From positions 62,334 to 126,333 of the forward strand of contig JAKLKO010000013.1 in assembly GCA_023150615.1 (NCBI GenBank): 64,000 nucleotides of DNA. The letters are read 5' to 3'. The position numbers and the translations under genes are program-made. The notes beneath the pieces were generated by a model, which saw only the letters and a program-made list of their open reading frames with translations, ran no database searches and was not told the DNA's origin. Below are positions 7,445-25,217 of the stretch, piece by piece (within the stretch, counting starts at the first letter, position 1; each line of letters opens with the position of its first letter). This DNA is from Phycisphaerae bacterium. Its GTDB lineage: Bacteria > Planctomycetota > Phycisphaerae > UBA1845 > UTPLA1.

Positions 7445-8443
7445 CTAGACGCGCCAACCTCGCGCCAGTTCGCGGATCCGCCACGGCATCCAGCCTTCGT
7501 ACGCACTGCGCGCCCACAGACGCGCGACCTGTCGACGCGCGGCCCACTGCAGGCGGCGTGTCGCCGCCGGCAGTCTGCCGCCCGCGCCGCGGCCGATCTC
7601 GTGCAGCGCGGAGACGATGCCGGACGCCGCCTGTTCGATGGTCGGCTGCCATCCGATCGGGTCGTAGCGGACCGGCGTGCCGCGCGGGTTCCAGATCGTC
7701 TCGTAGCGCTGGCGATTGGTCATCCCGATCGTGGTCCAGCGATGCGCGGCGCCCGGTCCCCAGACGTAGTGAGGACATCCGCAGAGACTCGCGAGATGCA
7801 GGCCGCCCGTCGATCCACCCGCCGCCAGCCGCGATCGCGCGAGGAGATCGACGGCGCGTTCGATCGGTGGCTCGTACCAAGTGACCCGCAGCCCGACGGC
7901 GGTCAGGCGTTCGGCGAGCAGTCGCCACCATTCGTCCGGCAGCGATCGCTGCGGTGCGAGCTGCCGAGCCCGAGGGACGAGCAGAACGTCGAATTCGGTG
8001 AGTCGCGGCTGGCTCCAATCGACGAAGCGCTGCGCGCGGGCATCGCACGGCCAGAGCCGGCCGCAACCGTCGGGCCAGAGGATCATGGCGTCATCGACCG
8101 CGATCTCACTGCGTTGGAGGGCGTCGAGGGTTGCGTCCTGCAGTTGTTTGATGGGGATCGTCCGACCGCACTCATCCACGCGCCGATCTTCGTTGGCATC
8201 GCCAGGCAGCGCGTCGATCGAAATCTCGCGCAATTCGGCGTGACGGTCGGCGTGGTGGGCGAGATCGCGATAGATCAGCGCCCGCCCCGCTCCGTACGTC
8301 ACCACGACGTTTTCGGCACCGGCCTCGTGGAGCAGCCAGCGGATGCGGCCCTGCCAGTTCATCAGCTCCCAGCCGAACTCGCCCCAATAGGGCGGGACGA
8401 GCAGGCGCGACGCCGGCCGGAATTCGTGGGGGTTGGACACCAT
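7445..8443 (-). CDS. Unrecognised polysaccharide-cluster protein with WGEFGWE motif; possible GT-B-like transferase
   Basis: A 332-residue soluble protein. No family can be named with certainty. Near the N-terminus it has LLVPPYWGEFGWELMNW, and around residue 215 LAAGGSTGGLHLASLCGCP. The latter recalls the nucleotide-binding loop of GT9/GT-B enzymes, where a small-residue run precedes a conserved His. No signal peptide or membrane span is seen. It lies between a deacetylase and a GT4, with short gaps on both sides (5 and 27 bases), so it is part of the EPS operon. A glycosyltransferase-fold role is an inference; a dead or regulatory homologue is possible. Confidence 0.6.
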   Translation of the reverse strand: MVSNPHEFRPASRLLVPPYWGEFGWELMNWQGRIRWLLHEAGAENVVVTYGAGRALIYRDLAHHADRHAELREISIDALPGDANEDRRVDECGRTIPIKQLQDATLDALQRSEIAVDDAMILWPDGCGRLWPCDARAQRFVDWSQPRLTEFDVLLVPRARQLAPQRSLPDEWWRLLAERLTAVGLRVTWYEPPIERAVDLLARSRLAAGGSTGGLHLASLCGCPHYVWGPGAAHRWTTIGMTNRQRYETIWNPRGTPVRYDPIGWQPTIEQAASGIVSALHEIGRGAGGRLPAATRRLQWAARRQVARLWARSAYEGWMPWRIRELARGWRV

Positions 8444-8448
8444 CGCTT

Positions 8449-9468
8449 CTACCGAACAGATTCATCGGCCGGTCCGCCGGGCCAGGCTTCGACGACTTGC
8501 GCGAATTCTTCCTCACTGCCGTTCGGGGCCGGGAAACGACTCCAGTCGAGCGGAGGTCGTCCGGCCGGGTTGAGACGCCGTCGCAGGTCGAGCACGACGC
8601 GGTGGCCGAGTTGCTCCGCGATGCGGACCGTCGCCGACGTGTACGCGTCCTTGAGTCCGAAGGGCAGAATCAGCGCGGTCGGCGGACGGCCGGTCCATTC
8701 GTGAAGCAGGTCGCGTGCGGTGGCGATCTCGGCCGCCTGCTGGGCCTCCGTCAGTTGCGAGAGCACAGGGTGCGCGTGGGTGTGGTTGGCGAAGTCGATC
8801 CAATCACGATCGGCCGAGGCGATCTGCTCGGGTTCAAGGTACAGGCGGTGGCGCGCGGCCAGCTCGGCTGCTGAGGTACCGGCGCGGGCAAGGAACTCGT
8901 CGAGAAGTCTCGGAATGACCGCGTGGCGGTAGCAGCGGCGCGTGAACGCGGCGAGCGATTCATCGGGCTGCGTCGTGTCGTCGGTCGGACGCAGTGCGTC
9001 GATGAGGGCGCTGCGGAGCGACGGCCCGTGGCCGTTCGCTTCGAGCCACGCGAGCTTATGCCGCCAGAGCAGGTCGCGGTTCCCGACGACCGACGTGCAG
9101 ACGCCGATGGTCATCGGGATTCCGTGGCGACGCAGGATGGGGGCCGCGACGCGGAGGCTGTCGGCCAGTCCGTCGTCGAAGGTGACGATGACGGCGCGGT
9201 CAAGGGGGTGGCCGCGGTCTATCGTCGCCAGCGCGTTGCGGAGCGCGACGGGCCGGAAATGCGTCGCGAGGTATTCCATGTGGGCGTCGAGTTGCCGGAG
9301 CGTGTGGAACGCCGCGCCACCGTGCGAGAAGGCGTCGGGTCCGTCTCCGACACGGTGATACGCGACGATCGTGAGGAGCGATCGCGCGCGGCGACGCCGC
9401 AGTCGGCGGACGATGCGTCCGGCGGCCGTGTTGAATCGGAAGACGCGAGCAAGCGCGGCGGTCGTCAT
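8449..9468 (-). CDS. Polysaccharide deacetylase (CE4/NodB family)
   Basis: A 339-residue protein with a NodB-type fold. VTFDDGLADS gives the Asp pair, and FANHTHAHPVLSQL supplies the metal-binding His motif. An N-terminal stretch rich in Arg precedes the domain and no clear cleavable signal peptide is present. The ATG at 9468-9466 overlaps the stop of the upstream GT4 gene as ATGA, which decides the start over a TTG two codons earlier. Exosortase-linked EPS loci regularly encode a polysaccharide deacetylase; N-deacetylation of an amino sugar in the polymer is the likely reaction. The compartment of action is uncertain because of the missing signal. Confidence 0.85.
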   Translation of the reverse strand: MTTAALARVFRFNTAAGRIVRRLRRRRARSLLTIVAYHRVGDGPDAFSHGGAAFHTLRQLDAHMEYLATHFRPVALRNALATIDRGHPLDRAVIVTFDDGLADSLRVAAPILRRHGIPMTIGVCTSVVGNRDLLWRHKLAWLEANGHGPSLRSALIDALRPTDDTTQPDESLAAFTRRCYRHAVIPRLLDEFLARAGTSAAELAARHRLYLEPEQIASADRDWIDFANHTHAHPVLSQLTEAQQAAEIATARDLLHEWTGRPPTALILPFGLKDAYTSATVRIAEQLGHRVVLDLRRRLNPAGRPPLDWSRFPAPNGSEEEFAQVVEAWPGGPADESVR

Positions 9469-17332: not shown

Positions 17333-20300
17333 ATGTACTGCGACCATTTCGATCTGGCGCTGCTGCCGTTCAACAACACGCCCGATCCGCGGTTTTTCTA
17401 CAACACGCCGGACCACGAGGAGGCCCTCGCCTCACTGCTCTACGCCGCGACCGAGCGCAAGGGCTACGCGCTCGTCACCGGCGAGGTCGGATCGGGCAAG
17501 ACCCTGCTCAGCCGACTGCTGCTCTCGCGCCTGCCGGCCGGGACGCAGACGGCGGTCATCACGAACTCGCGCCTGAGCGGTGCGGAATTGTTGACGGCCA
17601 TCTGCCGCGAGTACCAACTGCCGCTCGAGCCCGGCGCGACGGTCGCCGAGGCGTCGCACCTGCTGGAGCAGTTCCTGCTTGAGCAATACGCGCGCGATCG
17701 GCTTGTCATCGTCGTGCTCGATGAAGCCCAGAATCTCCCGCCCGACGCGTTCGAAGAGCTCCGCCTGCTCGGAAACCTCGAGGCCGAGGACGCCAAGCTG
17801 CTGCAGGTACTCGTCCTTGGACAACCCGAGCTTCAGGCGACGATTCGCCGGCCGGAGCTGCGCCAACTCCGCCAGCGCCTGTTTCGCACGTTCCACCTTC
17901 GCGCGCTGACGCGCGAGCAGACGGGCGGGTACATCGGGCATCGGCTGGAAGTCGCGGGGGCGACGCGCGAGCTGTTCACGCCCGACGCGATCGACGCGAT
18001 CTACCGCGCCTCGCAGGGCGTGCCGCGCCTGATCAATCAGACGTGCGACAACGCGCTGCTGGCGGCTTTCGGCGCGGGACGCGACCAGGTGACGCACGAC
18101 ATCGTCCGCGAGTGCATCGAAGCGGACGAAGCGCCGGCCATCGCGCCGCGGCTGGCGGCACGGGTTCCGGATGCCGCGCCGACCGAGACCGCCCCGAGTA
18201 ACCCGCCGGCAACGCGTGCGACCGCAATCGGCGACGTGGCGGCCGAGAAGCTGCTGCGGCGCTTGACCGAGATCGAATCGCGGATCGAGAGCCTGACGGA
18301 TCGCGTGCGTTCGCCGCGCGAGAATGAGCAGGTGGCGCACCGCGATCTCCAGAAGATCCGCGCGATCCGCGCGGACGCCGAGGCGATGCTGGCCGAGGCG
18401 GCGTCAGCGGTCGAGTCCATCCGCACGGGTTCGGTGGATGCGCTTCGCGACGGCGCTGCACGGCTGGGTGTGTCGGGCGAGCAGGCGCAGGCCGTTCAGT
18501 CGGCGACGAGCAGCCTCCGCGCGGAGCTGGAAGCAGAGGCGTCGCGGCTGGTGGACGAAATCCGGATGCACGCCGACGCCGAGCGGCGTCGCACGTCCGA
18601 GTTCGTGCGGGCCGAGCAGGAACGCTTGGAACCGCTTCGCAAGGACCTGGACGCACTCGTCAAGAGCGTCCTCGAAGAGGCTCGGACCGCGGACCAGCGC
18701 GCGGTCGAGGCGGCCCGGCACGCCCGTGACAGCGTGGGCGCGTCGGAGTCGGGCGTTGCGGCCCTTTCCGAAGCAGCGCGCCGACGGAGCGAGGCGGCGC
18801 TGACGGGCCTGGCGAACTTCGTGCTCGCGGCGCGGACGCGCTGCGAGTCGGCCTCGGCGCAGGTCTCGCAGTCGTTCGTGGAGGCGAAAGTCGAGATCGA
18901 CGCGGCGCGGGCGCAGCTGGAGAAGGCGCGCCGCGCCGTCGAGAGCGACGCTGAGTCGACGCGCGGCAAACTGCTCGCGCTGGTCGACGAGGCCCGGCGG
19001 GTCTTCGGTACGACGCGCGGACAGCTCGAGGCGTCGATCCGCCAGTTGCAGCAGCGCATCGACGAGCAGAATCGGCGAATCGAGGAATTGCATTGCCAGG
19101 CGGCGGTGACGTCCGGGCGGAGCATCAGCGAGGTGCAGGCGTCGATCGCCGCGGCGGCCGCCGAGGCGCAGCGCGTCCGCTCCGAACTGGAGTCGGCCGC
19201 GGCACTGGCTGTGTCGCGCGTGCAGGAATCGACGCAGCAGATGTCGGCCGCGACGGCTGCGTGCGAGGCCGACGTGGCGGCAATGCGCCGCCAGGCGGCG
19301 TCGGTGCGGGACGAGATCGCGCGTCAACTGGCCGAGGCGCGAACGCAGAGTGAATCGCTCCTGGCCGAGCAGGCGCAGCAGATCGAGACGATTCGTCGCC
19401 GGTCGGCGCAGGCGACCGCCGGCGTGCGCGACGAGGCGGCGTCGATCCGCGAGGCGTTCGCAACGGAACTGGCCGCGATCCGCACGCGGGCGGAGCAGGA
19501 GGCGGAGCAGGCGCTCGCTTCGATCGACCAGCGGCTTGGCGCGCGGAAGTCGCAGGCGACGGAGATTCACGAGCGAATGGAGCAAACGGTGCGGACGATG
19601 CAGGCCCGCGCCCGCGAGCTTCAGGAGCAACTGGAGAAGGACATCGCCCGCATTTCCGGTCCGCTGGAATTCGCGCGGGAAATGAAGGACGGTGTCGGCC
19701 GGCTGACCTCGGCGCGCGACGCGCTGCGGCGCGAGATTACCGAGGATGAGACGCGCGTTGCGACGCTTGTGGAACTGACGCGCAACGAAGTGGAGCGACT
19801 GACCGGCGCGCTCGGGACGCTCCAGTCCGAGCTGCGCAGCGAACTGGCAACGGCGCGCGAGCAGACCGAGTCCGACCGGCGCACGGCCCGCGCCGCGGCA
19901 TCGCGCATGGTCGCCGGGCTGAATTCGCTGCTCGGCCGCGCGACGCGGCGCGTGGAGCAGATCGAGGGCCGCCTGTCGGGCCTCCTGCAGCGCGCCGATG
20001 CGCGGACGGCCGAGTTCTCGCAATTGGCGGAAGACATCTGCCGGCGACTCGACTCGACCATGACGACGCTGCGCGATACGGCGGCGCTCCTGCAGACTCA
20101 GCACGAGGAGCAGGCGTCCCGGTTCCGCACGGAGTTGACGGACGCCGTCGCAAAGGCGCAGGAGGAAGTCGGACTGGTCGAACGCCGCATCGAGACGATG
20201 CTGGTCCAGGTTCGCGCCGCCAGCGCCGAATTTGAATCGCGCGTCACCACGTTGCGAGACTCGGCCGTCGGCGATCTGGACGCGGTCCGCGGCGAGCTGT

Positions 20301-21712
20301 CGCGGACCGTGGCGACTGCCGAGTCGACAGCGGAACTGCTCCGCCAGGAGACGGCGGGCATGCGCGAGGAACTGGCCGGTTCCACGGCGCGGGCGCGACA
20401 GTCGCTGCACGAGGCGATCGAGCGGACGCAGGTCGCCGGCGAGCGGTTGCAGCGCCAGGGCGGCGAAGTCGTCGAGACCGTCCGCGCCGAGCTGGAACGG
20501 TTGGCCGGCGAGTCCGAGACGCTGCGGCTCGAGATCGGCTCAGCTCACGACGAGATCGTGCGCGCCACCGAGGCGGCCGAGTCGCGTTTGCGTCAGACGG
20601 CGGCGGGGATTACTTCGCAGATCGAGTCGCTGCGCGACGCGACGAATCGCGACGCGGAGGGCAACGTGCGGCGGCTGGCGGGGCTGCGCGAGCAGATCGA
20701 AGGCGGGGCGGACCGCGTTCGCACGAGCGCCGCGGCGCTGCTGCAGCAGGTGCAGAGCGGCTCGGACGCGCTGCGGCAGCGCGCCGATGAACTGCTGGCC
20801 GGTGCACAATCCGGCGCTGCGCGAATCTCGGAGGAGGCCGCGGCGCTGCTTTCGGGCGCGCGGACCACGGCCGAGCGCTTCGAGCAGCAGGCCGCCGCTC
20901 TGTTGCAGCGTGCCGAGCAGGCGACCGAGGCGATCCGCGCCGAGGCCGGCGCGATCCGCCAGCGCCTTGACGAGGACAGGGAGCGCTTCTGCGAGACGAC
21001 CGGGGTGCTCGCCGAGAAGGCCGATCGCGCGAACGAGAAGTCCGAGGAGCTGCTGCGCCGAGCCGCGCAGACCGAATCGCAGGCCCGCGAGTTGCTGTCG
21101 ATGCCCACGCGGATCATCGCCGAGGCCGAGCAGCGCTCCGGCGAGTTGCGGAAAATGGCCGACGCCGTCTCGGAGATCATCGAGCGCCTCCGCAACGCCG
21201 GCACGTCGGCGCGGCAGCAGACCGAGCAGGTCCGTCATGCGACGGCCGTCGCGGACGAGCGCATGGCGCAGTTGGCGCAGCACTCGGCGCGCCTCGGCCA
21301 GCTCGTCGGCATCATCCGACAGTTGTACGGCGCGATGGATGCGCGGATCGACCACCTGCGCGAACGACTGGATCGCGCGGACGATCTGTGCCGCTCGATC
21401 CCCCACGAGATCAACTCGCTGCGCGATGCGCTGGGGACCGAGCGGCGGACCGCGCCACACACAGAGTTGCGGGGAGCTCGCGACGGCCAACCGGGCGACG
21501 GTGCGGACGCGAATGATTCGTCCGTCGCCGTGGCCGCAGCGCCGTCGACGTCCAAAGTCCGCACTCGCGCCGCCGCTCCGAAGACCGCGCGGCTGAAGCC
21601 CCCGAACCTCAGCGAACTGGTTCGCAAGAACCAGAAGCTCAACGAGTGGCTCCGCGAGGCCATCGCGGAATCGAAGCAATCCGACGCGCCGTCCGCGAAG
21701 GACGGGATCTGA
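17333..21712 (+). CDS. ExeA-like secretion ATPase (PEP-CTERM locus type) fused to a very long coiled coil
   Basis: A 1459-residue protein in one unbroken frame. Residues 1 to about 270 are an AAA+ ATPase of the ExeA/GspA type, close to the PEP-CTERM-locus secretion ATPase family: start MYCDHFDLALLPFNNTPDP, Walker A GEVGSGKT at 50-57, Walker B LVIVVLDEAQ at 124-133, then QGVPRLINQTCDNALL. Normal family members end here. From about residue 300 to 1370 the sequence is almost wholly Ala/Glu/Arg/Gln-rich with heptad-like spacing, few prolines and no clear membrane span, so an extended coiled coil is expected. The tail is basic and ends in a short segment around LSELVRKNQKLNEWLREAI. It is divergent from the EPS operon and probably works with it. 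The role of the coil is unknown. Confidence 0.85.
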   Translation: MYCDHFDLALLPFNNTPDPRFFYNTPDHEEALASLLYAATERKGYALVTGEVGSGKTLLSRLLLSRLPAGTQTAVITNSRLSGAELLTAICREYQLPLEPGATVAEASHLLEQFLLEQYARDRLVIVVLDEAQNLPPDAFEELRLLGNLEAEDAKLLQVLVLGQPELQATIRRPELRQLRQRLFRTFHLRALTREQTGGYIGHRLEVAGATRELFTPDAIDAIYRASQGVPRLINQTCDNALLAAFGAGRDQVTHDIVRECIEADEAPAIAPRLAARVPDAAPTETAPSNPPATRATAIGDVAAEKLLRRLTEIESRIESLTDRVRSPRENEQVAHRDLQKIRAIRADAEAMLAEAASAVESIRTGSVDALRDGAARLGVSGEQAQAVQSATSSLRAELEAEASRLVDEIRMHADAERRRTSEFVRAEQERLEPLRKDLDALVKSVLEEARTADQRAVEAARHARDSVGASESGVAALSEAARRRSEAALTGLANFVLAARTRCESASAQVSQSFVEAKVEIDAARAQLEKARRAVESDAESTRGKLLALVDEARRVFGTTRGQLEASIRQLQQRIDEQNRRIEELHCQAAVTSGRSISEVQASIAAAAAEAQRVRSELESAAALAVSRVQESTQQMSAATAACEADVAAMRRQAASVRDEIARQLAEARTQSESLLAEQAQQIETIRRRSAQATAGVRDEAASIREAFATELAAIRTRAEQEAEQALASIDQRLGARKSQATEIHERMEQTVRTMQARARELQEQLEKDIARISGPLEFAREMKDGVGRLTSARDALRREITEDETRVATLVELTRNEVERLTGALGTLQSELRSELATAREQTESDRRTARAAASRMVAGLNSLLGRATRRVEQIEGRLSGLLQRADARTAEFSQLAEDICRRLDSTMTTLRDTAALLQTQHEEQASRFRTELTDAVAKAQEEVGLVERRIETMLVQVRAASAEFESRVTTLRDSAVGDLDAVRGELSRTVATAESTAELLRQETAGMREELAGSTARARQSLHEAIERTQVAGERLQRQGGEVVETVRAELERLAGESETLRLEIGSAHDEIVRATEAAESRLRQTAAGITSQIESLRDATNRDAEGNVRRLAGLREQIEGGADRVRTSAAALLQQVQSGSDALRQRADELLAGAQSGAARISEEAAALLSGARTTAERFEQQAAALLQRAEQATEAIRAEAGAIRQRLDEDRERFCETTGVLAEKADRANEKSEELLRRAAQTESQARELLSMPTRIIAEAEQRSGELRKMADAVSEIIERLRNAGTSARQQTEQVRHATAVADERMAQLAQHSARLGQLVGIIRQLYGAMDARIDHLRERLDRADDLCRSIPHEINSLRDALGTERRTAPHTELRGARDGQPGDGADANDSSVAVAAAPSTSKVRTRAAAPKTARLKPPNLSELVRKNQKLNEWLREAIAESKQSDAPSAKDGI

Positions 21713-21826: not shown

Positions 21827-21891
21827 GAGGCCGCGTGGGATGGCGGACGATTTCCGGCCGGACAGCGCCGGTGCGGGTTGGAGGACGAACC

Positions 21892-23154
21892 GTGTACATG
21901 GGACAGTGGATCGTGGCGGCCGCGCTGGCCGCGGCGCTCTGGGGCGCCGATGCGCCGACGAGTCAGTTCGCCCCGAACGAGGGGCTTCCGCTCATTCGCT
22001 GGCAGGACGCCGTCAAGCACGTGGGCGAGCGGTGCATCGTCGTGGGCAAGGTGGAGCGCGCGCGGAGCAACCGCGGGGGCTACCTGTTGCAGTTCGAGGG
22101 CGAACCGCGAGGCGGCTTCGCCGTCTTCATCCGTCGCGAGCACGTCGGCAGGTTCCCAAAGACGCCCATCCAGCTCTATCCGCGGAAGTGGATCCGCGCC
22201 ACCGGTTTGATCGACGAGTATCGCGGGAAGCCGGAGTTGATCGTCTCCGCGCCGGAGCAGATCGAGGTCTTGTCCGGCGAGCCATCGTTGCCGGAGGCGC
22301 ACGCGGGTTCGGAATGGAAGTTCGACGGCACGGTGACCGTCGGCACGTTCAACGTCCTGAATCTGTTCGACGACGTCGACGATCCGTACACCGCCGACGA
22401 AGGCACTCCGCCGAAATCGCGCGAGGACATGCAGCGGCTCGCCGACACGATCCGCAAGCTGAACGCGGACGTTCTGGCGCTGGAGGAGGTGGAGAATCGC
22501 GGCATTCTGGAGCGGTTCGTGCGCGTGCACCTGTCGGACCTGCATTACGCGCACGTCGTGCACGTCGAGTCGAACGACCAGCGCGGCATCGACTGCGCCG
22601 TGCTCTCGCGATTGCCCGTCGGACCGGTGACGTCGTACCGGCACGTCCCGATCCCGATGAAGGGCGGCGAGGTGACCACGCTGCGGCGGGACCTGCTGCG
22701 CGTGCGGATCGAGCCGCCGGGCGGCGACGCGTTTGACGTGTTCGTCGTCCACTTCAAGTCGAAACGCGGCGAGCGCACGGGCGAAACGTCGCCCGTGCGA
22801 CAGGCCGAAGCCGAGTTCGTGCGCAGGACGTGCGACGAAATCCTGCGGGACGATGCGGCCGCGCGGTTCATCGTCTGCGGCGACTTCAACGACACGTGGG
22901 AGAGCGGGCCGATCCGCACGATTCGAGGCGACGGCGCCGGTGCGCTTGCGTGCTTCGTGGACGAGCTGCCTCCCGCGCAGCGCGTCTCGTACAACCAGGA
23001 GCCGCACCGCAGCGTGATCGACTACATCTTCTGCTCGCCGGCGATGGCGAAGCGCTACGTCGGCAAGTCGTACACGATCCTCGACGGCAGCGTGGCAACG
23101 AGCGGATCCGACCACAATCCGGTCCGTGCAACCTTCCGCGTGCGCTCCAACTGA
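21892..23154 (+). CDS. Exported endonuclease/exonuclease/phosphatase-family protein
   Basis: About 420 residues. After an N-terminal hydrophobic signal (MGQWIVAAALAAALWGADA) there is an OB-like segment (residues about 40-125), then an EEP-fold domain. The EEP blocks are VGTFNVLNLFDD, LALEEVENRG (metal-binding Glu), FVVHFKSKRG, FIVCGDFNDTW and SGSDHNPVRA (the terminal catalytic Asp-His). These fit a metal-dependent phosphodiesterase or nuclease. GGAGG at 21880-21884 lies seven bases before a GTG at 21892, which I prefer; an ATG at 21898 is the alternative start. Periplasmic or secreted nuclease activity is likely, but lipid or sugar phosphate substrates are possible in this fold. Confidence 0.83.
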   Translation: MYMGQWIVAAALAAALWGADAPTSQFAPNEGLPLIRWQDAVKHVGERCIVVGKVERARSNRGGYLLQFEGEPRGGFAVFIRREHVGRFPKTPIQLYPRKWIRATGLIDEYRGKPELIVSAPEQIEVLSGEPSLPEAHAGSEWKFDGTVTVGTFNVLNLFDDVDDPYTADEGTPPKSREDMQRLADTIRKLNADVLALEEVENRGILERFVRVHLSDLHYAHVVHVESNDQRGIDCAVLSRLPVGPVTSYRHVPIPMKGGEVTTLRRDLLRVRIEPPGGDAFDVFVVHFKSKRGERTGETSPVRQAEAEFVRRTCDEILRDDAAARFIVCGDFNDTWESGPIRTIRGDGAGALACFVDELPPAQRVSYNQEPHRSVIDYIFCSPAMAKRYVGKSYTILDGSVATSGSDHNPVRATFRVRSN

Positions 23155-23450: not shown

Positions 23451-23480
23451 TTGACACGCCAAAAGGAATGTGGCTAAACT
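23451..23480 (+). promoter_or_regulatory. Sigma-70-type promoter for the first 47-residue peptide gene
   Basis: A perfect -35 TTGACA (23451-23456) and a good -10 TAAACT (23475-23480) are separated by 18 bases. It is the best promoter match in the window. Transcription would begin near 23487 and give a leader of about 175 bases before the peptide gene at 23663. Confidence 0.6.
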
Positions 23481-23486
23481 CGCCCC

Positions 23487-23662
23487 TCGTGTTCAGGCGA
23501 TATGCCTGAGAGGCCTCGTCCTTATGGCGCGGCAAGGCCGGGGCGCACATCGCGAGTGGACCGGGCAGTTCCCAACGGCAGCTCGCGAGGTGTGGTCCAA
23601 GGGCAGAGGATTGCTTCGTTAGTCATTGGATTTGGGAACATGTTTAGGAAAGGGTAAGTCAA
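23487..23662 (+). promoter_or_regulatory. Structured 5' leader of the peptide gene
   Basis: The predicted transcript leader contains an inverted repeat: CGCGAG near 23552 pairs with CTCGCG near 23584, and flanking TGGACC/GGTCCA arms could extend or compete with it. I do not recognise a known riboswitch or RNA family. It could be a regulatory leader or only a structured untranslated region. Confidence 0.35.
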
Positions 23663-23806
23663 ATGGCTTGGCGAATTGGAATTTTCGCTTTCCAGGCGAT
23701 CACGGAGCTCGTGACGAACATCTTCCCGATTCCGCTGATCACCGATTGGTTCTTCGATCCGTTCGATATTCTCCTGAGCGGTCTGCTCACCTGGTGGGCA
23801 AACTAA
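23663..23806 (+). CDS. Small hydrophobic peptide, 47 residues (copy 1)
   Basis: ATG at 23663 and TAA at 23804-23806. AAAGGG ends eight bases before the ATG as a ribosome-binding site. The peptide starts MAWRIGIFAFQAITELVTNI and ends GLLTWWAN. It is strongly hydrophobic, with two Asp-bearing turns around residues 28-35, and could form one or two short membrane helices. Promoter, leader, RBS and isolation support a real gene. It shares ITxLVTxI and F-x-P with the second 47-residue peptide at 24186; with a two-residue offset, 10 of 45 positions are identical. No known family is recognised and the function is unknown. Confidence 0.6.
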   Translation: MAWRIGIFAFQAITELVTNIFPIPLITDWFFDPFDILLSGLLTWWAN

Positions 23807-24057
23807 GCTGAACGGGTAGGAACCACTACTCGCCGGCAAGCGCCGGTCGACATGGGAGGTGCAGCAGCGCTGATTGCAGGTTAGGGCGTAAAGCCTTCGG
23901 ATGATCGGTCGCGTTCCCACGCGACCAGAGGCGGCGAAGACGAGTCCGGCTGTCTCAGGATCATCCGCATCGCTTCGCTCCCCTGTACACCGAGCGCACG
24001 CCGCCTTCCGACCGGTTGCGCCGTCGAGTCGGACTCGTTGCTACTGCTAGCAGCAGC
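23807..24057. other. Spacer between the two peptide genes
   Basis: About 250 bases with no protein gene I can support. It may be the 3' untranslated part of the first peptide transcript. GCCGGC-type short repeats and a CTGCTAGCAG palindrome near 24043-24052 are visible. No tRNA or known RNA motif was found. Confidence 0.4.
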
Positions 24058-24096
24058 AGGACCTGTGTGATCTTCACACGGGTCCTGTTCGCTTTT
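24058..24096 (+). terminator. Intrinsic-terminator-like hairpin between the peptide genes
   Basis: A 13-bp stem (24058-24070 with 24074-24086, one T-G wobble) closes a 3-base loop and is followed by GTTCGCTTTT. This would end the first peptide transcript. Its right arm overlaps the -35 of the promoter-like sequence for the second peptide. Confidence 0.6.
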
Positions 24097-24101
24097 ACAC
24101 T
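24073..24101 (+). promoter_or_regulatory. Promoter-like sequence for the second peptide and perhaps accD
   Basis: TTCACA at 24073-24078 and TACACT at 24096-24101 are 17 bases apart. The -35 lies in the right arm of the hairpin at 24058-24086, so a terminator and a promoter would share the same bases. The leader to the peptide start at 24186 would be about 80 bases. Confidence 0.42.
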
Positions 24102-24185
24102 ACCGCACGACCGGTCGCGGAACGGGCTCTGAATCGCCGGGCCTCCCACGCCGAGATTCGCTCCCGCCGGCCAGGAGTCGCTGCG

Positions 24186-24329
24186 ATGTCGCTCATCCTG
24201 CTCGGTCTCGGGTTCTTCAGTTTCGTGATCACGGACCTGGTGACGCTGATCGTGTTGACCCAGATCGACCTGAACGCATTGTTCGGACCGATCCGTGACG
24301 CGGTCAACCAGTTCCTCGGCGTGGTCTGA
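24186..24329 (+). CDS. Small hydrophobic peptide, 47 residues (copy 2)
   Basis: ATG at 24186 and TGA at 24327-24329. AGGAG at 24173-24177 lies eight bases upstream, a near-ideal ribosome-binding site. The peptide starts MSLILLGLGFFSFVITDLVT and ends NQFLGVV. The first 27 residues form a probable membrane helix; the rest is more amphipathic. It has exactly the same length as the peptide at 23663 and shares the ITxLVTxI core, suggesting duplication. It ends 87 bases before accD and may be on the same transcript. No family is recognised. Membrane localisation is inferred from composition only. Confidence 0.6.
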   Translation: MSLILLGLGFFSFVITDLVTLIVLTQIDLNALFGPIRDAVNQFLGVV

Positions 24330-24416
24330 GCGGCGGCCGTTCCGCGGACCGCGAACACCCAACGCGATCGGGGCGAACCGCGGCGTACCCGTCGGCCCCG
24401 ACGAACAGGTTTCACG

Positions 24417-25217
24417 ATGGCCAAGGTTGACGTTCCGGAAGGCCTGTGGATGCGCTGCACGGGGTGCAGCAAGATGATCTTCCGCAAGGTGCTGGAAGAG
24501 AATCTACACGTCTGTCCCGAGTGCGGCCTGCACTACCGCATCAGCGCACGGACGCGGATCGCGCAACTCGTCGATCCGGACGCCTTCGAAGAGACGACCC
24601 TCCGGCTGACGTCGAGCGACCCGCTCCGCTGGCAGGACTCGAAGCCGTATCCTCAGCGGCTTGCCGACGCGCAGCGCGAGACCGGCCTCGCCGATGCCGT
24701 CATCAGCGGCAAGGGATACATCAAGGGCCGGGCCGCCATCCTCGCCGTCATGGACCCGACGTTCGTGATGGGCTCGATGGGTTCGGTCGTCGGTGAGATG
24801 GTCACGGCCGCCATCGAGCGCGCCTCGGACGAGAACCTCCCGCTGGTCATCGTGACGTGCTCGGGCGGCGCGCGGATGCAGGAGGGGCTTGTCAGTCTGA
24901 TGCAGATGGCCAAGACGTCGGCGGCGCTGGCGCGGCACGATTCCGCTGGAGGGCTGTACATCACCGTGATGACCGATCCGACGACGGCCGGCGTCGCCGC
25001 GAGTTTCGCCTTCCTCGGCGACGTGATCGTCGCGGAACCGGGGGCGATGATCGGATTCGCCGGGCCGCGCGTGATCTGGAACACGGTCAAGACCGAGCTT
25101 CCGGCCGGCTTCCAGACGGCCGAGTTCATGCTCGAGCACGGGTTCATCGATCGCATCGTTCCGCGACACGCCTTGCGGAGTGAGATTGCGCGGATCATCG
25201 ACTACTGCGGCAAGTAG
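24417..25217 (+). CDS. accD: Acetyl-CoA carboxylase carboxyltransferase subunit beta
   Basis: A 266-residue AccD, slightly shorter than E. coli AccD. The N-terminal zinc ribbon is present as CTGCSKMIF and CPECGLHY. The carboxyltransferase domain has FVMGSMGSVVGE, VTCSGGARMQEG and MTDPTTAGVAASFA. Together with AccA it transfers the carboxyl group from biotin to acetyl-CoA, giving malonyl-CoA for fatty acid synthesis in the cytoplasm. accA is not in the window. AGG seven bases before the ATG is a modest ribosome-binding site. The gene may share a transcript with the second 47-residue peptide. Confidence 0.95.
   Translation: MAKVDVPEGLWMRCTGCSKMIFRKVLEENLHVCPECGLHYRISARTRIAQLVDPDAFEETTLRLTSSDPLRWQDSKPYPQRLADAQRETGLADAVISGKGYIKGRAAILAVMDPTFVMGSMGSVVGEMVTAAIERASDENLPLVIVTCSGGARMQEGLVSLMQMAKTSAALARHDSAGGLYITVMTDPTTAGVAASFAFLGDVIVAEPGAMIGFAGPRVIWNTVKTELPAGFQTAEFMLEHGFIDRIVPRHALRSEIARIIDYCGK

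Follow-up and report, generated by a model that had tools for sequence, protein, structure and literature searches.

SAM-II and preQ1-II are translation-controlling riboswitches that place a pseudoknot next to the ribosome-binding site. In the ZorO-OrzO system of E. coli O157:H7, small hydrophobic peptides are encoded in duplicate and a structure in the 5' UTR of ~180 nt hides the ribosome-binding site (PMC3919570, PMC8309996). TisB, DinQ, and Ldr are also short hydrophobic peptides controlled by mRNA structure (PMC8309996), and membrane-associated type I toxins carry cationic residues, generally at the C-terminus (PMC8309996). Here we analyzed a 64,000-nt stretch of a Phycisphaerae genome (contig JAKLKO010000013.1, positions 62,334 to 126,333; hereafter, the window), in which small hydrophobic frames lie upstream of accD. 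By sequence comparison, the locus runs from a fixed sigma70-type promoter through a leader with conserved hairpins and one or more peptide frames to a stable 3' fold and a terminator before accD. We propose that it is an operon gated by a pseudoknot, whose products are acidic membrane peptides encoded in tandem and shaped as helical hairpins, with a layout like that of the type I toxin zorO, at a conserved core locus; our judgement on this reading is evenly balanced. No account of this locus was found in the literature.

The first-pass annotation described two frames of 47 codons each, at 23663-23806 and 24186-24329, with plausible Shine-Dalgarno-like sites, and both are present as described (all features of the locus, and accD, are on the plus strand). 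The first, designated type A, is preceded by the Shine-Dalgarno-like sequence AGGAAAGGG (23646-23654) and encodes a peptide of 47 aa with a net charge of -3 and a predicted helix-turn-helix form. The second, designated type B, also encodes 47 aa and lies between the terminator and accD, the gene for the acetyl-CoA carboxylase carboxyltransferase beta subunit (24417-25217; Pfam Carboxyl_trans and Zn_ribbon_ACC). Only four ATG frames of 30-60 aa in the 64-kb window have a GRAVY above 0.8, and both peptides are among them. The upstream neighbour is an exo/endonuclease/phosphatase-like gene (21835-23154). Elsewhere in the window, a 1459-aa frame (17333-21712) starts, judged by translation only, like an ExeA-kind AAA ATPase, and the rest is a very long coiled coil rich in alanine, arginine, and glutamate.

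Across 61 genomes searched, type A homologues were found in three of the same family, all upstream of accD: G003 (E 2.5e-8), G010 (three copies, best 2e-7), and G004 (two copies, best 6e-5). Other family genomes carry, also upstream of accD, hydrophobic frames of 35-39 aa that share the core IDLNPLLDLIFTPLSWAL (type C); these nearly always form a tandem pair, with a start-to-start distance of 170-260 nt. The type C profile matched 14 of the 17 family genomes, which are metagenome-assembled genomes of Phycisphaerae or Planctomycetota, and the remaining three (the window genome, G003, and G010) have type A without type C, so that a type A or type C peptide stands at the locus in all 17. G004 has both types, and G016 has a single copy, at a contig end. 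Two or more tandem frames are usual in the relatives, and the window has one. Conservation upstream of accD in related genomes, which the first-pass annotation had named as its own test, was thus strongly borne out for the first peptide, whose clear homologues and tandem copies in relatives that annotation had overlooked. Outside the family, no convincing match was found in other genomes of the order and none in ~380 other genomes of the class; the type C profile, run over 397 class genomes, recovered the family members and one weak match inside a 639-aa frame, and the accD loci of 15 genomes from other families contained no such frames. Viral contigs gave no match to the peptides, and plasmids gave none to type A.

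Types A and C share a pattern, P followed by D-hydrophobic-hydrophobic-F-x-P, as well as the same place, promoter, and leader. Comparison of their profiles was weak (P 0.0035, probability 9%); sequence alone leaves their homology unproven, and their position makes it likely. Support in the AccD tree was too weak to show whether type A is ancestral. In G004 (7800-9000), two type A peptides stand behind one promoter, together with a type C peptide that has a separate leader and promoter, an arrangement that is possibly intermediate between the two types. Two further copies were noted: a third type C copy in G007 (G007:C259:67023-67118, minus strand), away from accD, with an extended N-terminus (MIPIPFITPSFNVLNLPLIPKLSPDLLYAALIGAIDSNPMLDL...) and no recognisable copy of the leader; and a further type A copy in G010 (8409-8549; MSLKIGTFALQSLLQLVSTYTPILGPFLNWFYTPLDIILSG...), ~1 kb downstream of the first two, beyond a terminator and possibly under a promoter of its own.

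The family genomes keep the peptides in a constant place before accD, which might point to a role in fatty-acid synthesis, with the peptides acting as small regulators or subunits of acetyl-CoA carboxylase and the leader sensing a lipid precursor. We consider this quite unlikely, because a terminator separates the peptides from accD and the extra G007 copy is away from accD. Moreover, the exo/endonuclease-like upstream neighbour is also kept in several genomes, which indicates that the synteny is general.

The tandem copies within a genome differ mostly at synonymous sites: pS is mostly 0.3-0.75 and pN mostly 0-0.09, as counted by a simple method that leaves multiple changes per site uncorrected. 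The copies of G009 differ by 18 synonymous changes over 38 codons and those of G012 by 12 over 36 codons, with identical amino-acid sequences in both pairs. G011 is the exception, with 50% identity between its copies, and the G008 copies have hardly any difference of either kind (pS 0.08), near-identity in DNA that suggests a recent duplication or conversion. For the window type A frame itself, the direct evidence of coding consists of the E-values of its homologues and the G004 pair (pS 0.61, pN 0.09). As synonymous sites have diverged strongly between tandem copies with few changes in protein, the frames appear to be translated and selected, and these comparisons are strong evidence that they are coding and under purifying selection; the first peptide is certainly a gene. 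Mean amino-acid identity is 89% within genomes versus 64-68% between them, and synonymous divergence is roughly similar (0.52 versus 0.57-0.64). This suggests a pressure that keeps tandem copies alike, and partial gene conversion may contribute to their likeness.

Upstream of the first frame lies a promoter (23451-23480) with the -35 hexamer TTGACA (23451), an 18-base spacer, and the -10 hexamer TAAACT (23475). The pattern TTGACA-N18-TAAACT occurs once in the window's genome, and the same or similar hexamers are found in all 16 family genomes with upstream sequence, with a spacer of 16 in G003, TATATT in G010, and TAGACT in G004 as variants. The promoter is ~190-215 nt from the first start codon (~395 nt in G008), and the leader is about 165-170 nt long. 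It begins with two hairpins, P1 (23492-23510; UUCAGGC-GAUAU-GCCUGAG) and P2 (23513-23544; GCCUCG.CCUU AUGGCGCGGC AAGG.CGGGGC), the latter with a conserved GGCGCGG loop. Covariation in 12 genomes supports both: 91.7% of alignment cells are paired, versus 88.2% in shuffles, and five pairs are changed on both sides, a result that none of 500 shuffles equalled and that slid controls fell far below. This test used the realigned P1-P2 part; RNAalifold on the full leader found little, with the hairpins shifted in the alignment. A covariance model of P1-P2 (R1) gave one match per genome, at this locus, in 12 genomes of the family (E between 1e-17 and 2.5e-8; 9e-15 in the window), and the divergent leaders of G004, G005, G006, and G014 were recognised by alignment only. 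Among 114 genomes beyond the family, the model had six weak matches (E 0.005-0.05), none of them followed by a small hydrophobic frame. Searching the window and the relatives' loci against Rfam returned only sub-threshold chance matches, none at the gathering score; one of these, to twister-sister at 23525, was rejected because the core is not kept in relatives.

The structured leader claimed by the first-pass annotation is therefore upheld by comparison of relatives, whereas folding of the window copy alone is unexceptional (z -1.4), as is minimum-energy folding of the leaders generally (mean z -1.5). Programs of this kind do not model pseudoknots. The third hairpin, P3 (23546-23594), carries GUUCCCAA in its loop (23568-23575); in most genomes a hairpin of changing sequence displays GUUCCC in the loop, and the window copy has a weak apical stem and a longer outer stem, UCGCGAG/CUCGCGA. 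The complementary GGGAAC stands just 5' of the Shine-Dalgarno site, in the window within UUGGGAAC (23632-23639), which ends 6 nt before it. GUUCCC and GGGAAC, or wobble variants of them, are complementary in 15 of 15 aligned leaders, a count biased toward pairing since the arm segments were picked for the motif. The core hardly varies, so support from covariation rests on the flanking pairs; the pair next to the core is G-C in six genomes, A-U in three, and G-U in two. In a simple test, a perfect 6-base complement between the leader body and the start region was present in 16 of 17 leaders, with 6.3 expected. From these sequence comparisons, the GUUCCC-GGGAAC pairing is probably a pseudoknot. 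The leader of G008 is ~200 nt longer and has no GUUCCC, so gating of this kind is not universal.

Downstream of the type A frame, the mRNA continues into a structured 3' region (23807-24043), followed by the conserved CTGCTAGCAG hairpin and the intrinsic terminator GCAGGACCTG...GGGTCCTGT (24044-24097). This very stable structure and terminator, overlooked in the first-pass annotation, separate the two window frames. Among the family genomes, the last stop codon and the terminator are 108-301 nt apart, and the 3' region folds more stably than its shuffles in 16 of 16 genomes (mean z -5.2, versus 0.07 for control stretches). In the window, z is -6.7 over 290 nt including the terminator. Without the last 75 nt, the mean z is -3.0, and that of the window copy is -4.4. 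In 10 of the 17 genomes, including the window genome, the 3' end CTGCTAGCAGnnGCAGGACCTG is present as a single copy, always at this locus, and variants of it are found in others. This shared 3' end indicates that the type A unit of the window and the type C units are one homologous transcription unit. The CTGCTAGCAG hairpin (24044-24065), just before the terminator, has a palindromic CUAG loop in most family genomes, which could allow loop-loop dimerisation of the RNA.

Such a 3' region in every genome examined, together with the conserved, locus-specific 3' end and the conserved P2 loop, could mean that the RNA is the main product, that is, a structured regulatory RNA, 500-700 nt long, that contains the peptide frames (a dual-function RNA). 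However, outside the terminator the 3' region differs among genomes in both sequence and length, and selection at the protein level is intense. We regard this alternative as unlikely.

The second window peptide fits the operon less well. Its homologue in G010 scored better than all of 2000 shuffles, and G010 also has a second small frame; a possible homologue is found in G003. Relatives were seen in only these two other genomes and are absent from the type C genomes. The ten identities reported between the two window peptides were reproduced, at a 2-residue offset, but their paralogy is not established: the shuffle p is ~0.009, yet profile-profile comparison gives P 0.57. The first-pass annotation also gave each peptide its own promoter. 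For the first this stands, the promoter being kept in relatives; for the second there is no conserved promoter, and the proposed TTCACA/TACACT (24073/24096) overlaps with the terminator and is not matched in relatives. Type B, after the terminator and before accD, is best seen as belonging to the accD unit.

AlphaFold2 (AF2) predicted two helices with a break between them in both types, at residues 2-20 and 24-46 in type A and 3-17 and 19-36 in type C (mean pLDDT 82; pTM low, 0.39-0.43). The best 19-residue window of type A reaches only 1.2-1.5 on the Kyte-Doolittle scale, so binding may be interfacial rather than transmembrane; composition suggests contact of the peptides with the membrane. 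The impression of unfamiliar, membrane-active-looking peptides in the first-pass annotation held up in the libraries searched: there was no peptide match above cut-off in Pfam or NCBIfam, none in PDB sequences or Rfam, and no match of note in a fold search with type A. In a PHROGs scan of type A, one of eight members matched phrog_2169, 'membrane protein' (9e-4).

With 35-49 aa, a GRAVY of 0.75-1.5, and predicted helices, the peptides have the size and hydrophobicity of membrane-associated type I toxins. They could accordingly be the toxins of a type I system, kept silent by an antisense RNA whose gene lies elsewhere or whose promoter escaped detection; hydrophobic peptides of <60 aa, tandem duplication, and a structured 5' UTR of ~170 nt all recall zorO (PMC3919570, PMC8309996). 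Nevertheless, the net charge is -2 to -4 in nine of ten peptides and 0 in one, acidic where the toxins are cationic. No conserved minus-strand promoter was found, nor did any genome have a linked complement of more than 13 nt. Owing to this lack of a linked antisense promoter or complementary RNA and to the opposite charge, we do not claim membership in the type I class. The locus also has one fixed place in every family genome, whereas type I toxin modules are usually patchy in their spread. Taken together, we rate this explanation as rather unlikely.

The peptides are short, amphipathic or hydrophobic, and present in tandem copies, so they could also be exported antimicrobials or surfactants made without a signal sequence, like leaderless bacteriocins or PSM-beta. 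The direct neighbours examined include no exporter or immunity gene, and the fixed core conservation and slow protein evolution seen here are atypical of bacteriocins. This origin is very improbable.

In the pseudoknot-gated operon that we favour, GUUCCC in the P3 loop would pair with GGGAAC beside the ribosome-binding site, and the pseudoknot would hold back translation. A signal, which might be a metabolite, a protein, an sRNA, or membrane stress, would shift the fold and release translation. Once made, the peptides would enter the membrane as short helical hairpins, probably in oligomers of near-identical copies, and change its state. By analogy, the logic would be that of hydrophobic peptides gated at the ribosome-binding site, such as ZorO and TisB, but at a core physiological locus of the family. 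A bolder version, which we hold only tentatively and think doubtful as it stands, sees a new class of RNA-gated peptide operon: an undescribed pseudoknot leader, which may be a riboswitch of a new class, would control a tandem core membrane peptide with a house-keeping membrane role in planctomycetes. In that version, copies near-identical in protein and diverged in DNA would imply an obligate homo-oligomer. The locus would contribute a small-protein family and a structured mRNA leader that have not been described before, each of them kept across a whole planctomycete family. Its tandem copies, alike in protein and diverged in codons, offer a natural experiment on the duplication of a small membrane peptide, and if the leader senses a ligand, the genes that it controls are already known.

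The likeness to SAM-II and preQ1-II lies in the probable pseudoknot beside the ribosome-binding site; the leader here has a three-hairpin layout and no Rfam match at the gathering score. Compared with TisB, DinQ, and Ldr, the peptides show no sequence similarity in the libraries searched, are acidic, and are predicted to form two helices broken by proline rather than one. ZorO-OrzO is the closest analogue in its working, as both systems combine duplicated small hydrophobic peptides with a structured 5' UTR. Here, in contrast, no linked antisense RNA was found, the peptides are acidic helical hairpins by prediction, the leader has a pseudoknot motif, and the tandem frames, apparently on one mRNA, occupy a fixed core locus.
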